From the NCBI RefSeq assembly GCF_000020525.1, contig NC_011026.1, positions 1,532,001 to 1,596,000 on the forward strand: a DNA stretch of 64,000 bases, written 5' to 3'. Below the pieces are notes generated by a model. That model ran no database searches. It saw nothing but the letters and a program-made list of their open reading frames with translations, and was not told where the DNA came from. Origin of the DNA: Chloroherpeton thalassium ATCC 35110. GTDB lineage: Bacteria; Bacteroidota; Chlorobiia; Chlorobiales; Chloroherpetonaceae. A program made the position numbers and the translations under genes. Shown piece after piece: positions 40,298 to 48,905 of this stretch. Position 1 is the first letter of the stretch; every line of letters starts with the position of its first letter.

Positions 40298-40774
40298 TTA
40301 TAATTCGTTTATTCTACTCAAAAATTTCACATACACATTTTTTGAATACCACCGTCCTTTTGCTATCATTTCGTCAAGTAAAGGTTTTATTTCGGATATT
40401 ATTCCTTTTTCTTTTGCTTTTAACAGAATGGAAAGTGTTCTGATAACGTCCAAGCCGGAATTTCTTGCAATTTTATAACCGATATTCTCATCAATCAAGA
40501 CATAATCGGCGTTTATTTCTTTTGCCAGAATTATTGTTTCGGCTTCCCCCAAATCCAACTGATTTAACAATAAGTCTCTATAAATTTCGCCTTTGATTGA
40601 TTGAACTTTTATAAAATCCAACTCAACTTCATCATATCCGTAACTTTTCTTTTCTTTAATTTCATCATACACAGCCTCACTTATGATGATTTCATTAAAC
40701 AAATCTTTTAAAATGTCGATTTTTCCAATTGAACTCAAAGAAATTATCGGTGTTGTGTTTGAGACGATTATCAT
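40298..40774 (-). CDS. DUF3368 PIN-like toxin of a toxin-antitoxin pair
   Basis: The 158-residue protein matches DUF3368: MIIVSNTTPIISLSSIGKID, then LDLGEAETIILAKE and YVLIDENIGYKIAR. PIN nucleases use acidic residues at the ends of these strands; the first is Asn here (VSNTT for VSDTS), while the Glu of GEAE and the Asp of IDE remain. Its ATG overlaps the antitoxin stop (ATGA). DUF3368 is the usual partner of UPF0175. The gene is clearly more AT-rich than its neighbours, suggesting transfer. Confidence 0.87.
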   Translation of the reverse strand: MIIVSNTTPIISLSSIGKIDILKDLFNEIIISEAVYDEIKEKKSYGYDEVELDFIKVQSIKGEIYRDLLLNQLDLGEAETIILAKEINADYVLIDENIGYKIARNSGLDVIRTLSILLKAKEKGIISEIKPLLDEMIAKGRWYSKNVYVKFLSRINEL

Positions 40775-41046
40775 TTTATTTTTATCGAATCTTCGAAGAT
40801 TTCGTCCATTTCTTCTTCGTTATAATCAAATATTGATTCTCCTTCTCTTTGTAATTTTTCAATAAATTCAATTTTTTTATATCCGGCAAGTTCTGCCGCT
40901 TTCCCAAGCGACAATCGTCTTTTCCGGTAAAAATACAAGGCTGATAAATACATGATTTCGTTTGTGAACTCATCTTTTGTTTCTTTTGCCGATAACAAAA
41001 TATTTTCTTTTATCGGGAAACAAATATTAATTATTCTTTCTTGCAT
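40771..41046 (-). CDS. UPF0175 antitoxin
   Basis: The 91-residue protein has the UPF0175 pattern: a short N-terminal strand (INICFPIKENILLS), then EIMYLSALYFYRKRRLSLGKAAELAGYKKIEFIEKLQREG split over residues 30-70, a helix-turn-helix-like block. It should neutralise the DUF3368 toxin and repress the operon. It precedes the toxin gene with a 4-bp overlap. AT-rich like the toxin gene. Confidence 0.88.
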   Translation of the reverse strand: MQERIINICFPIKENILLSAKETKDEFTNEIMYLSALYFYRKRRLSLGKAAELAGYKKIEFIEKLQREGESIFDYNEEEMDEIFEDSIKIK

Positions 41047-41108
41047 TTTTAAAGCTCCAAGAGTTTATTGCTCATTAGACGAAATTTCAAGCTTTTATAT
41101 CCAAAATC

Positions 41109-41360
41109 TTAATTAGGCACAATGTCAACCGACGTCATCTCTTCAATGAGTGTTTCCGGCGCAATATCTTGCTCGTGCGGCCAAGTAACCGCGCCAAAAA
41201 CAATCCCGACCTGATTGAAATAATGCTCATCTTTGAGTTCTCGAAAGACGCCGAAATCAAGGTAAGGCTTCATATCAAAGATGCCTTGACGACCATCTTC
41301 AATTTCAACATAAATTCGATAATCGGATAACGGTTTGACAACTTTTACATCCCAATACAT
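41109..41360 (-). CDS. DUF2442 protein
   Basis: The 83-residue protein matches DUF2442: VKVVKPLSDYRIYVEIEDGRQGIFDMKPYLDFGVFRELKD over residues 6-45, then FGAVTWPHEQDIAPETL. DUF2442 genes usually sit directly after DUF4160 genes, as here, in pairs suspected to be toxin-antitoxin modules. The function is not established. It starts 7 bases after the DUF4160 stop. Confidence 0.9.
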   Translation of the reverse strand: MYWDVKVVKPLSDYRIYVEIEDGRQGIFDMKPYLDFGVFRELKDEHYFNQVGIVFGAVTWPHEQDIAPETLIEEMTSVDIVPN

Positions 41361-41367
41361 AAAGCCC

Positions 41368-41632
41368 TCACAACGGTTTGATTTTATAAGGTTCTTCTCC
41401 GTTAATCGCCAACTCCCAATTAGCCGTCAATTCATCACGATGTAATTCAATCCACGCTTGCACTAAGCGGAGTTGCTTGCGAGGCAGATTTCCTGCTAAA
41501 ATCTCTCCGTCAGCAATATCCACAGGCGCTTCAAATTCCGCGTATCTTGCATGGATGTGCGGTGTTATGATGTTTGTTATCAAGAAGATACAAACGAATA
41601 ATAATTCCATAAAACATGGATATGATTGGCAT
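41368..41632 (-). pseudogene. DUF4160 gene broken by a frameshift
   Basis: From ATG 41632 the frame reads MPIISMFYGIIIRLYLLDNKHHN, the standard DUF4160 N-terminus. From about 41562 the next frame reads PHIHARYAEFEAPVDIADGE and on to LINGEEPYKIKPL-like family sequence ending at 41368. The two halves join near 41563, where one extra base (or two missing bases) separates AAC from CCG; relatives read HNPPH here. A TG start at 41610 would give only an 80-residue form with an unrelated N-terminus. It is either a true pseudogene or a sequencing error. Confidence 0.8.
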
Positions 41633-41992: not shown

Positions 41993-43750
41993 ATGAATAA
42001 TCAAAATGCTGTCTCCCAACTATCGGTTGAGTCGCAATCTCCTAAAGGTTGCGCTGGTATCGGTTCGGATGTTTTTTATGCCAAATTTCAACTTGGCCAA
42101 ACATTTCTGCAAGCATTGCACAAAGAACCTCTCGCGGAAAATGATGGTAGAGGATTGAATGTGGTGCAGTATGATCCGGTCACGCTTCAGCCTGTAGATG
42201 GGGTGCAGTCCTTCGACACTTACGGGAATAAGGCAACAGAATCAGCGAAGTTTAAAGCCTATGTTGATAGTATTCCTGACGATGCGATTGTTGCAATCGC
42301 CGTTTGCGATTCGGCGGTGACTTCAGGCGGAAGTTTATCGAATGATGTCATTGCGGCCTGCCAAAGTTTGGGAAGTACCAACATCGAAAATGTTGCTTAT
42401 CGTGTGCCATGGGCGATGGTTGCTCAAAAAGGCTCGTCTAAGCTTGCTGAAAAAATTGGCATCCATAGCCAAACCGAACGCCAAGTTCTGAAAATTTATG
42501 CCTCCTGTGTTGCCGAAACGTCCGATTCCGTCATTAGTTCATTGGAAAATGAAGCGCCATATTTGACCGTTAGTTACGATGGAAAAGAAGTCACGCTTGA
42601 AGAAGCCCTAACCGAATCCGTTCAGGCTGCGCAAAAAAGCGCGGCGCAGTCTCTTGATGCTGATTTGTATAAAGGCTTGGCAAAAGTCAATGGGTTGCCC
42701 GTCGGTTGGCCGCTGTCTTTCGAGGATTACATTGTGTATTTACAGCAGTTTGCGGAGTACATTCCCAAGCAAAGCGACGATGCCGCGTGGGTAAAGCCCG
42801 GAACTGAGGAATATCAGGAAATTTATGACCGACTTTGCCATTTCTATTTCTTGGTGAATCAAACGGACACGCCAATCCAAAACAATGCGTGGTTTAGCAA
42901 ATGGCTCGTAAAATATGCCAATGCGTGGGGCAGCTTCCTCAACACCACCGCGTCTTTCTCAGCGGAAACCTTGCAATCTTTTAGGGACAGAGCGCCAGAA
43001 TATCGGGTGGAAGATTCCATGATTGACGGTAGGCCAAACAATCCGAGCGGCTGGCTGACCTTCAATCAGTTTTTTGCCAGAGAGCTAAATCCCGGCTTGC
43101 GCCCGATTGCCAGTCCAAGCGATAACACCGCTGTCACTTCGCCCGCCGACTGCACATACAGAAATCATTTTCAGATTGATGAAAACTCAAAAGTCGTCAT
43201 AAAAGGCACGCATACTTATTCGGTGGAGCAGTTGCTCAAGGGCAGCAAATATCAAGATACGTTCGCCGGTGGCGTTTTCTTTCATTGCTTCTTAGGCCCG
43301 TACTCTTATCATCGTTTCCATACGCCTGTGTCTGGCAAAATTGAGGAATGCTACGCCATCAATGAAAAGGTTTATCTCGAGGTCAATATTGATGACAAAG
43401 GCCAGTTTGACGCGCCGGATAGTTCTGCCGGAGGATACGAATTTTCTCAAGCAAGAGGCGTGATTACAATTGACACCAAAGATTCGCCTTATGGTGATGT
43501 TGGCGTCGTGGCGATTATTCCTATTGGCATGGCTCAGGTTTCCTCAGTCAACATGACTGCAGTCGCCGGCAACGAGACGCTCAAAGGCGATGAATTTGGC
43601 TATTTCCTTTTTGGCGGCTCGGACATCATTATGCTCTTTGAGAAAAAAGTCAATGCGCAGGTTGTGCCGGCAATTATGCAAGAAAGCAGTTCGAGCAACG
43701 AATTGCCATATCTTCATTACGGCGAAAAGGTCGTTGAACTCACCGTTTAA
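41993..43750 (+). CDS. ILEI-like domain fused to phosphatidylserine decarboxylase-like enzyme
   Basis: The 585-residue protein has no signal peptide. Residues about 50-150 resemble the ILEI/FAM3 lectin-like fold: GRGLNVVQYD, SFDTYGN, DDAIVAIAVCDSA, LGSTNIENVAYRVPWAMVAQKG. Residues about 235-330 resemble the PSD-associated domain, and about 335-570 the pyruvoyl decarboxylase: WLTFNQFFARELNPGLRP, TSPADCTY (Asp), SYHRFHTPVSG (His) and FGGSDII, where self-cleavage before S543 would make the pyruvoyl group. The usual LGST reads GGSD. The family includes amino-acid decarboxylases (PsiD type), so a free amino acid rather than phosphatidylserine may be the substrate; the lack of a membrane segment supports this. 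Confidence 0.85.
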   Translation: MNNQNAVSQLSVESQSPKGCAGIGSDVFYAKFQLGQTFLQALHKEPLAENDGRGLNVVQYDPVTLQPVDGVQSFDTYGNKATESAKFKAYVDSIPDDAIVAIAVCDSAVTSGGSLSNDVIAACQSLGSTNIENVAYRVPWAMVAQKGSSKLAEKIGIHSQTERQVLKIYASCVAETSDSVISSLENEAPYLTVSYDGKEVTLEEALTESVQAAQKSAAQSLDADLYKGLAKVNGLPVGWPLSFEDYIVYLQQFAEYIPKQSDDAAWVKPGTEEYQEIYDRLCHFYFLVNQTDTPIQNNAWFSKWLVKYANAWGSFLNTTASFSAETLQSFRDRAPEYRVEDSMIDGRPNNPSGWLTFNQFFARELNPGLRPIASPSDNTAVTSPADCTYRNHFQIDENSKVVIKGTHTYSVEQLLKGSKYQDTFAGGVFFHCFLGPYSYHRFHTPVSGKIEECYAINEKVYLEVNIDDKGQFDAPDSSAGGYEFSQARGVITIDTKDSPYGDVGVVAIIPIGMAQVSSVNMTAVAGNETLKGDEFGYFLFGGSDIIMLFEKKVNAQVVPAIMQESSSSNELPYLHYGEKVVELTV

Positions 43751-45789: not shown

Positions 45790-47343
45790 ATGAAATACAA
45801 AATTCTTTGGGCAGATGATGAGATAGATTTTCTCAGACCACATGTCATGTTTCTCAGCGACAAAGGTTATGACGTCACTTGCGTGATGAATGGCGCGGAT
45901 GCTCTCGAGCGCGCTCGCCAAAACAACTACGACCTTATTTTTCTGGATGAAAAAATGCCAGGCATTAGCGGGCTCGATACGCTAAGCGAGATTAAAAATA
46001 TTTCCCCAGCTACGCCTGTGGTGATGATTACCAAGAGCGAGGAGGAATCGCTCATGAACAAAGCCATCGGAAAGAAAATTTCGGAGTATCTGATTAAACC
46101 GGTTAATCCCAACCAAATTTGGCTGGCTTGCAAAAAACTGCTTGAATCGAATCGACTGAAAGAAGGTGCGGCTGCGCAAGATTATATTTCCGAGTTTAAT
46201 CGAATTACCCAAGAACTGATGGGCCCAATGGATGATGAGGATTGGCGCGATTTGCATCGGCGGCTTTCTGAATGGGAAGTTGAGCTCGATGAGCATCCCA
46301 ACCTAGACTTGCGTGAAACGCTCGTGGGGCAAAAGCGCGAGTGCAATTTGGCTTTTTCCCGGTTCATAGAAAATAATTATGCCGATTGGTGCGCAACTGA
46401 AAAGGATACTCGCCCGATGCTTTCGGTAGATGTGCTTGAGAAAAAAGTGATTCCAGAATTAGACAACGATGGCTCCGTGTTCTTTTTCGTGATCGATTGC
46501 CTGCGTTACGATCAATGGCTTATTTTGGAGCGCACGCTTCAAAACTATTTCAACATCGAGCACGATAGCTACTTTTCCATTTTACCTTCGGCCACGCCTT
46601 ACGCGCGAAATGCGATTTTCAGCGGCTTATTTCCGGCTGACATCGCCAAACGCCTTCCTTCAAAATGGATTATTGCGCCTGAAGCTGAGCAAAGTCGCAA
46701 CAGTTTTGAGCAAGACTTTTTGGAGGATTTTTTAAAACGCCGCCGTGTTTCCGTGAAGAGCGCCAAATATACAAAGCTGATTGGCGCTGATGATTCTCGG
46801 ACGTATGAGCAAACCATTTTGGGGCAGGTTAAAAATAAATTGAACGCCGTGGTTGTGAATTTTGTCGATATTCTGGCGCACAGCCGCTTCGATTCGCAAG
46901 TGATTCGCGAACTTTCACCCGATGAGGCGGCCTATCGTAGCCTGACGCAAACTTGGTTTGAATATTCCTCGCTGCACAGAACGCTGAAAGCTTTAGCCAA
47001 TGAAAAGGTGACGATTATTTTAACTACCGATCATGGTAGCATTCGCAGCATGAGGCATACGAAAGTCATCGGCGATCGGGAAGCCTCCACCAACCTTCGC
47101 TACAAGTTTGGGCGAAATCTTCAATGCGACCAAAAGCACGCCATCTATATCAAAGATCCCGCCACGTATAGATTGCCTCGCCAAAAACTCAATGAAAACT
47201 GCATTATTGCTAAAGAAGATTATTACTTTGTTTACCCAACGAACTATCACAAATTTATTAATCAGTATAAGGATTCATTTCAGCATGGCGGCGTTTCACT
47301 TGAGGAAATCGTGGTGCCGTGTATGCGATTAACACCAAGGTAA
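45790..47343 (+). CDS. porX: PorX-type response regulator with PglZ-like domain
   Basis: The 517-residue protein has a CheY-like receiver (residues 1-125; acidic pocket D9/D10, phospho-acceptor D53 in LIFLDEKMPG, Lys in YLIKP), a helical middle and a C-terminal alkaline-phosphatase-superfamily (PglZ) domain. The latter shows FFVIDCLRYDQW, SATPYARNAIFSG with Thr269 at the nucleophile position and TTDHGS. This is the architecture of PorX, which with the kinase PorY controls type IX secretion genes in Bacteroidota and hydrolyses oligoribonucleotides. No PorY or secretion gene is nearby, so the output here may differ. A cupin gene follows after 12 bases. Confidence 0.93.
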   Translation: MKYKILWADDEIDFLRPHVMFLSDKGYDVTCVMNGADALERARQNNYDLIFLDEKMPGISGLDTLSEIKNISPATPVVMITKSEEESLMNKAIGKKISEYLIKPVNPNQIWLACKKLLESNRLKEGAAAQDYISEFNRITQELMGPMDDEDWRDLHRRLSEWEVELDEHPNLDLRETLVGQKRECNLAFSRFIENNYADWCATEKDTRPMLSVDVLEKKVIPELDNDGSVFFFVIDCLRYDQWLILERTLQNYFNIEHDSYFSILPSATPYARNAIFSGLFPADIAKRLPSKWIIAPEAEQSRNSFEQDFLEDFLKRRRVSVKSAKYTKLIGADDSRTYEQTILGQVKNKLNAVVVNFVDILAHSRFDSQVIRELSPDEAAYRSLTQTWFEYSSLHRTLKALANEKVTIILTTDHGSIRSMRHTKVIGDREASTNLRYKFGRNLQCDQKHAIYIKDPATYRLPRQKLNENCIIAKEDYYFVYPTNYHKFINQYKDSFQHGGVSLEEIVVPCMRLTPR

Positions 47344-47918: not shown

Positions 47919-48905
47919 ATGCGAAACTCGGTTGTTTTTTTATTACTCCTGTTTTTTCTCATCAGTGCAATGGGCTGCAATCGCACGCGCGAAAGTTCTC
48001 GTTTGGTGCCGATTAAGTACAAAAATCAATATGGTTTTGTCAATGAATTTGGGGAAATCGTGGTTGAGCCTGACTACACCGATGTGCTGGAATTCTCGGA
48101 AGGCTTAGCGGGCGTTCGCGAAAAATATCTGTATGGATTTGTTGATACAAAAGGAAACCTTGCCATCGGCATGAAATATGGGAGCGTGAGGCCTTTTTCA
48201 GAAGGCTTTGCGATGTTTACTTCTGCCTTCAAGTATGGGTTTATAAATCGGCAAGGAGAAATTGTGGCTAAACCAGAGTATAGCGCGGCGCAGAGCTTTT
48301 CGGAAGGATTGGCTGCGGTAAAATATGCTGGAAGATGGGGCTACTTAGACACGCTTGGCCACATGAAAATTTTGGCGCAATTCAAATATGCGCAGCCTTT
48401 TTCGGAAGGGCTTGCTTGGGTGCGGCTCGATAGCCAGTATATCTGCATGAATAAAAAAGGCAAGCAACTTTGGCGATCGCGTTTCGACGATGCCTCGCCA
48501 TTCTCGGAAAAAGTGGCTGCCGTCAAAATAAGCGGCACTTGGGGTTTTATCGATGCGGATGGAAAGCTTGTCATTCAGCCGGAATATGCTTACGCGCGAT
48601 CGTTTAAAGATAGTTTGGCTGCCGTTCGCGTCGGTGAAAAGTGGGGTTTCATCACGCATGCCGGCAGTTTTGCGATCGAGCCACAGTTTGACGATGCGCA
48701 TCTATTTTCCGAAGGCCTTGCATCGGTCAGAATGAAGGATAAATGGGGCTATATAGACAAAAATGGAAAATGGATCATCGAGCCAAATTACGACTACGTC
48801 GGCGATTTCATTGATGGCATTGCGCCCATTCGCGACGGTAGCATGTGGAGCGGTATAACAAAAAGCGGCCAGATCATTTGGACGCCGCCGCAAGAAACCG
48901 ATTAA
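47919..48905 (+). CDS. WG-repeat lipoprotein
   Basis: The 328-residue protein has a lipoprotein signal (LLLFFLISAMGC, Cys near 20). From about residue 30 it consists of roughly seven WG/KWG repeats of about 42 residues, each of the form YGFI-x-GEIVxxPxY-x-FSEGLAxV. WG repeats form beta-propeller-like or solenoid binding surfaces and are common in Bacteroidota envelope proteins. No enzymatic motif is present. It converges on the hydrolase gene, with a large hairpin between them. Confidence 0.88.
   Translation: MRNSVVFLLLLFFLISAMGCNRTRESSRLVPIKYKNQYGFVNEFGEIVVEPDYTDVLEFSEGLAGVREKYLYGFVDTKGNLAIGMKYGSVRPFSEGFAMFTSAFKYGFINRQGEIVAKPEYSAAQSFSEGLAAVKYAGRWGYLDTLGHMKILAQFKYAQPFSEGLAWVRLDSQYICMNKKGKQLWRSRFDDASPFSEKVAAVKISGTWGFIDADGKLVIQPEYAYARSFKDSLAAVRVGEKWGFITHAGSFAIEPQFDDAHLFSEGLASVRMKDKWGYIDKNGKWIIEPNYDYVGDFIDGIAPIRDGSMWSGITKSGQIIWTPPQETD

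Follow-up and report, generated by a model that had tools for sequence, protein, structure and literature searches.

One gene in the 64,000-nucleotide stretch of Chloroherpeton thalassium DNA analysed here (the window) encodes an ILEI/FAM3 domain joined to a pyruvoyl decarboxylase that resembles phosphatidylserine decarboxylase (PSD). We lean, with modest confidence in the statement as a whole, towards a self-processing, soluble amino-acid decarboxylase of the PsiD-like branch that carries an extra ILEI domain, proposed to bind a ligand; our confidence in the decarboxylase part taken alone is much greater. We saw no second ILEI-decarboxylase fusion among the relatives examined or across ~1,500 sampled genomes, and a literature search found no account of ILEI-PSD fusions. 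The features of the gene, in window coordinates, are as follows:

41993..43750, + strand: ILEI – PSD-like pyruvoyl decarboxylase fusion gene (585 aa; the final codon is the stop)
42149..42436, + strand: ILEI/FAM3 (GG) domain, residues 53-148 (PF15711, structure matches, T4-type gp35 match)
42149..42151, + strand: R53, counterpart of POMGnT1 Arg129, a GlcNAc contact (PDB sequence/profile alignments)
42308..42310, + strand: D106, counterpart of POMGnT1 Asp179 (PDB sequence/profile alignments)
42401..42403, + strand: R137, counterpart of POMGnT1 Arg207 (PDB sequence/profile alignments)
42437..42541, + strand: linker, residues 149-183 (24-row alignment, N-terminal lengths of relatives)
42542..43747, + strand: PSD-like half, residues 184-585, comprising a helical N-terminal part and the PF02666 core (relatives, model, Foldseek)
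43061..43663, + strand: PF02666 PS_Dcarbxylase, residues 357-557 (Pfam scan)
43148..43150, + strand: D386 of SPADC, counterpart of E. coli PSD Asp90 (alignment)
43310..43312, + strand: H440 of YHRFH, counterpart of E. coli PSD His144 (alignment)
43613..43624, + strand: GGSD, predicted self-cleavage site, residues 541-544, cut between G542 and S543 (alignment with PsiD chains)

The fusion gene and its two domains

The reading frame at 41993-43750 (+) is intact and begins with ATG. An in-frame stop lies 16 codons upstream, and the ATG is the sole start codon after it when ATG, GTG and TTG are all considered. The merging of two adjacent genes through a missed stop was rejected, as the frame is open throughout and residues 142-184 contain no Met. 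With an intact frame and both Pfam domains above chance, the fusion of an ILEI and a PSD-like domain proposed by a sequence-only reading of this DNA is real.

The N-terminal domain matches PF15711 from end to end (profile positions 1-90 of 90) with E=4.8e-22 and 78.7 bits, far above the curated cut-off of 27 bits, which makes the proposed ILEI assignment significant. A search of the whole contig of 3,293,456 bases found no second ILEI domain in this genome. When the ILEI half was searched against PDB sequences, FAM3C, TMEM2, FAM3B, FAM3A, and POMGnT1 were retrieved, and a bacterial ILEI profile, which includes the ILEI domain of the fusion protein itself, matched FAM3B (2e-21), FAM3C (2.4e-20), and the POMGnT1 stem (5e-20). 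In phages, a related domain occurs in gp35, the long-tail-fibre connector of T4 type. Plasmid and phage searches with the ILEI part returned nothing beyond weak phage gp35 matches. Scans of genome and viral contigs with the protein alone, and of viral contigs with an ILEI alignment, were unproductive. The AlphaFold model left the ILEI part unfolded (pLDDT mostly <55), without the beta-beta-alpha fold of the family, because the input alignment contained no ILEI homologues. Residues 184-585 are modelled mostly with high confidence.

Neither a transmembrane segment nor a signal peptide was seen in the Kyte-Doolittle hydropathy profile of the fusion protein. The maximum 19-residue mean is 1.63 and falls within the catalytic core, in agreement with the earlier suggestion of a soluble protein that lacks a membrane segment; E. 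coli PSD (EcPSD) binds membranes through amphipathic helices, and hydropathy alone cannot exclude such helices here.

Self-processing and substrate of the decarboxylase half

Homology gives the decarboxylase chemistry a firm basis. The PSD-like domain named in the sequence-only reading was recovered as PF02666 with E=1.1e-43. The PSD-associated domain named alongside it was not: PSDC (PF12588), an N-terminal domain of PsiD-like decarboxylases, went undetected in the fusion protein even at E<=1, and it was not detected in a stand-alone relative (L036) either. Self-cleavage of EcPSD involves residues D90, H144, and S254 (PMC7952604), whose counterparts in the fusion protein are D386, H440, and S543. 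D386, H440, G542, and S543 are invariant in a 24-row alignment, and C387, H443, and S543 fall within the SPADC, YHRFH, and GGSD motifs, respectively. Of the complementary Asp pair of EcPSD, D90 alone has a counterpart, as D142 is replaced by S438. In PDB entries of PsiD, the aligned GG forms the very end of the beta chain, in support of a cut before S543. Cleavage is thus predicted between G542 and S543, with conversion of S543 to the pyruvoyl group. GGSD is found in 77 of 93 family sequences, amongst which SPADC is the most frequent form of its motif. Both motifs are therefore present as first described, but they are the family norm and do not mark a new specificity; the idea that altered motifs signal new chemistry was rejected for the same reason.

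We infer the cleavage, the cofactor and the amino-acid substrate, the last by analogy with the nearest solved enzymes. Foldseek placed PsiD (8zia, 8x4q) and the Aspergillus oryzae arginine decarboxylase (9jf5, 9jer) ahead of E. coli PSD, and a profile search gave 5e-29 for PsiD vs 5e-22 for EcPSD. The fusion protein fails all NCBIfam PSD equivalog cut-offs, its best score being 106.7 vs 371. There are two PF02666 proteins in the genome, the fusion and a separate protein of 221 aa. The latter scores 342 bits against an NCBIfam PSD equivalog cut-off of 284, so the phosphatidylserine decarboxylase of the cell is encoded elsewhere than in the fusion gene. As the nearest folds are fungal Trp and Arg decarboxylases, PSD equivalogs are failed and the genome has a PSD of its own, an amino acid is favoured over phosphatidylserine as substrate, as is the soluble amino-acid decarboxylase that had been proposed from the sequence alone.

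A generic annotation would instead assign the fusion enzyme to membrane lipid synthesis, as a phosphatidylserine decarboxylase. Membership of PF02666 and ~25% identity to EcPSD in the Foldseek alignment are in keeping with that role, but the failed equivalog cut-offs, the amino-acid decarboxylases as nearest solved relatives and the separate canonical PSD count against it, as do the lack of a membrane segment by hydropathy and the absence of the LGST motif. True PSDs have a phosphate contact at Tyr137 of EcPSD (or Arg; PMC7952604), and Tyr137 aligns with F433, a Phe, in the fusion protein. We consider this role very improbable, and phosphatidylserine was rejected as the substrate on the grounds of the equivalogs, the Tyr137 replacement and the separate PSD.

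As an amino-acid decarboxylase, the proenzyme would fold, and D386, H440, and S543 would promote its self-cleavage between G542 and S543. The predicted products are a beta chain of 59.4 kDa and an alpha chain of 4.8 kDa. The beta chain would comprise the ILEI domain, the linker and the greater part of the core, whereas the alpha chain would have 43 residues and be headed by the pyruvoyl group. The pyruvoyl group would then form a Schiff base with an amino acid, leading to the release of CO2 and an amine.

Stand-alone relatives, ancestry and genomic surroundings

A scan of genome contigs yielded at least 515 relatives of the decarboxylase half, mostly in frames of ~400-480 aa. Amongst 80 of these, the earliest residue matched is 142, so that residues 1-141 are covered by none of the 80. 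Stand-alone relatives mostly start at or near residue 178 of the fusion protein. The closest relatives among the matches listed are stand-alone proteins of ~400 aa that share ~60% identity with residues 184-585. ILEI aside, the fusion protein is an unremarkable member of a widespread family of soluble enzymes. Across 28 close relatives, 107 positions show at least 93% conservation; the fusion protein retains 105 of them, and on this basis the decarboxylase half should be active.

A quick maximum-likelihood tree puts the fusion sequence next to a protein from Celerinatantimonas (SH-aLRT 93), within a mixed clade that draws its members from Bacteroidota, Pseudomonadota, Acidobacteriota, Actinomycetota, and further groups. 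The Chlorobiales paralogues are far from it in the tree and just 32-35% identical. This placement amid several phyla and away from the Chlorobiales paralogues suggests that the decarboxylase was acquired horizontally. The ILEI fusion is most simply placed on its own branch and would probably have arisen in the Chloroherpeton lineage after acquisition of the stand-alone enzyme. Among the Chlorobiales paralogues (L005-L014), those of one family have a signal-peptide-like N-terminus and would be periplasmic pyruvoyl decarboxylases. A relative in Oscillatoria (L066:5899-7254) has an extra C-terminal hydrophobic segment after the catalytic core, resembling a membrane anchor.

The fusion gene is flanked by a toxin-antitoxin-like block on one side and an aspartate kinase gene on the other, both on the minus strand, and is not part of an operon. 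The block just upstream (40298-41610, -) is low in GC (~31-40%) and holds DUF3368/UPF0175 toxin-antitoxin-like genes and DUF2442/DUF4160 genes. Further along the window, an ORF at 45790-47343 (+) encodes a response regulator fused to a PglZ domain and is similar to PorX, a regulator of type IX secretion in Bacteroidota. Another at 47919-48905 (+) resembles a WG-repeat lipoprotein. The enzyme family has no conserved neighbour, bar a PSD-like paralogue in a few genomes, which contains PSDC where scanned. With neither an operon nor a conserved gene neighbour, there is no evidence either way for the earlier idea that the amine serves as a signal or osmolyte, which is unsupported. In five Flavobacteriaceae loci (L053, L054, L056, L057, L061), the PSD-like paralogue lies directly upstream of the GGSD enzyme, with PSDC in the one scanned. 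In a Saprospiraceae MAG, the two are joined in a single 857-aa frame (L043:5554-8124). The tandem placement and the 857-aa fusion suggest that paralogue and GGSD enzyme work together.

Role of the ILEI domain

PF15711 is present in 100 of 394 genomes of the same phylum group and in 8 of 98 of the same order, but in none of the 349 genomes of a Pseudomonadota set. In the sets around the Acidobacteriota, cyanobacterial, planctomycete, and myxobacterial relatives, it was found in 6/199, 2/194, 7/199, and 2/193 genomes, respectively. Two of the 47 genomes that hold enzyme relatives also carry ILEI, both in separate frames of ~1,650-1,700 codons, and the one that was Pfam-scanned is a C25 peptidase. 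Within the same phylum group, nearly all ILEI domains belong to frames 1,500-1,900 aa long; the Pfam-scanned ones are C25 peptidases, some with T9SS-type tails. Further ILEI partners include membrane or exported-looking proteins (DUF6311, PEP-CTERM) and an FGE-sulfatase-type protein, while other frames have no recognised second domain. In a planctomycete-group genome, ILEI follows an FGE-sulfatase (sulfatase-modifying-factor type) domain (L127:1-1830), which is another unusual partner. Beyond the fusion gene, ILEI did not share a frame with PF02666 in any of the ILEI frames scanned, which were a subset of the matches, some covered partially, and thus a sample and not proof of uniqueness. The fusion being widespread among relatives was rejected, with no second case there or in the sampled genomes. 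Bacterial ILEI proteins with a readable architecture mostly look extracytoplasmic or membrane-bound.

The sequence-only reading cast ILEI as a specificity domain. This is not supported, given relatives of ~60% identity that do without ILEI and the near-complete retention of conserved positions in the catalytic half. We propose that ILEI is a tethered ligand-binding module that may place or regulate the enzyme and would not set its substrate. The ligand would most likely be a sugar or sugar-bearing partner of GlcNAc type, as judged from R53, D106, and R137. In POMGnT1, Arg129, Asp179, and Arg207 contact GlcNAc (PMC9802357). Their spacing of 50 and 28 residues is matched in the aligned POMGnT1 sequence by the Arg in RGIH, the Asp in KDEGS and the Arg in GWRD. 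The Fam3L1 domain of Caenorhabditis elegans, which is non-binding, has lost two of the three sugar-contact residues (PMC9802357). The kept R53, D106, and R137 raise the likelihood of sugar binding but do not prove it; such R/D/R residues are widespread among ILEI domains and may be partly structural. Sugar binding by this ILEI domain and its role are accordingly hypothetical, and a glycan ligand in the cytosol would be odd given the mostly extracytoplasmic or membrane-bound look of readable bacterial ILEI proteins. A more specific proposal has ILEI bind a glycan or sugar metabolite in the cytosol and, by doing so, gate the pyruvoyl amino-acid decarboxylase or determine its location; it is tentative and on balance unlikely.

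Two other roles were weighed. ILEI could be a dimerisation or protein-docking module without a sugar ligand, bringing the decarboxylase together or attaching it to a partner, much as the related domain of phage gp35 has a structural part in a tail-fibre hinge. FAM3C has been reported as a domain-swapped dimer, and free glycans are scarce in the cytosol, where the domain resides here. All three sugar-contact residues are nevertheless kept, unlike in the non-binding Fam3L1, and we consider docking possible, if improbable. The joining could also be a recent, near-neutral accident in one genome with little functional effect, as the single example among all sampled genomes and the relatives without ILEI might indicate. 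However, the domain has diverged (20-28% identity to other bacterial ILEIs) with its full profile and key residues intact, which points to long retention under selection, not necessarily inside the fusion, and makes a chance fusion rather doubtful. If the ligand-binding module does regulate an enzyme inside the cell, it would give a new role to this fold, which is familiar from glycan enzymes and cytokines of animals. The molecular role of animal ILEI/FAM3 proteins is still unclear (PMC9802357). Should the domain bind sugar and affect the enzyme, the fusion would offer a simple soluble system for the molecular role of ILEI/FAM3 domains. It also belongs to a set of GGSD decarboxylases worth assaying, and does not itself settle the substrate of the family. 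To our knowledge, this wider bacterial GGSD family, spread over many phyla, has no assigned substrate.

Amongst known systems, FAM3A/B/C, the POMGnT1 stem, and TMEM2/CEMIP resemble the fusion protein in their full-length ILEI profile match and R/D/R residues. They are animal proteins that are secreted or located in the Golgi or at the cell surface, whereas the ILEI of the fusion protein is cytosolic and N-terminal to a decarboxylase. The C25-type peptidases of Bacteroidota carry the same Pfam domain within the same phylum group, but in frames of ~1,500-1,900 aa where ILEI follows the peptidase and some have T9SS-type tails; their ILEI is just 20-28% identical to that of the fusion protein. Psilocybe cubensis PsiD, an L-tryptophan decarboxylase (8zia, 8x4q), shares the pyruvoyl fold, the GG^S site and the layout of helical N-terminal part and core, but has ~18% identity, lacks ILEI, and has a Trp specificity that the fusion protein may not share. 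The A. oryzae pyruvoyl-type arginine decarboxylase (9jer, 9jf5) likewise shares the fold and the GGS motif at ~18% identity, lacks ILEI, and has an Arg specificity that the fusion protein may not share. The bacterial 'phosphatidylserine decarboxylase family proteins' (for example L036, L039, and L042) come closest, with SPADC, YHRFH, and GGSD in common and ~60% identity over residues 184-585; unlike the fusion protein, they are stand-alone enzymes of ~400 aa without ILEI.
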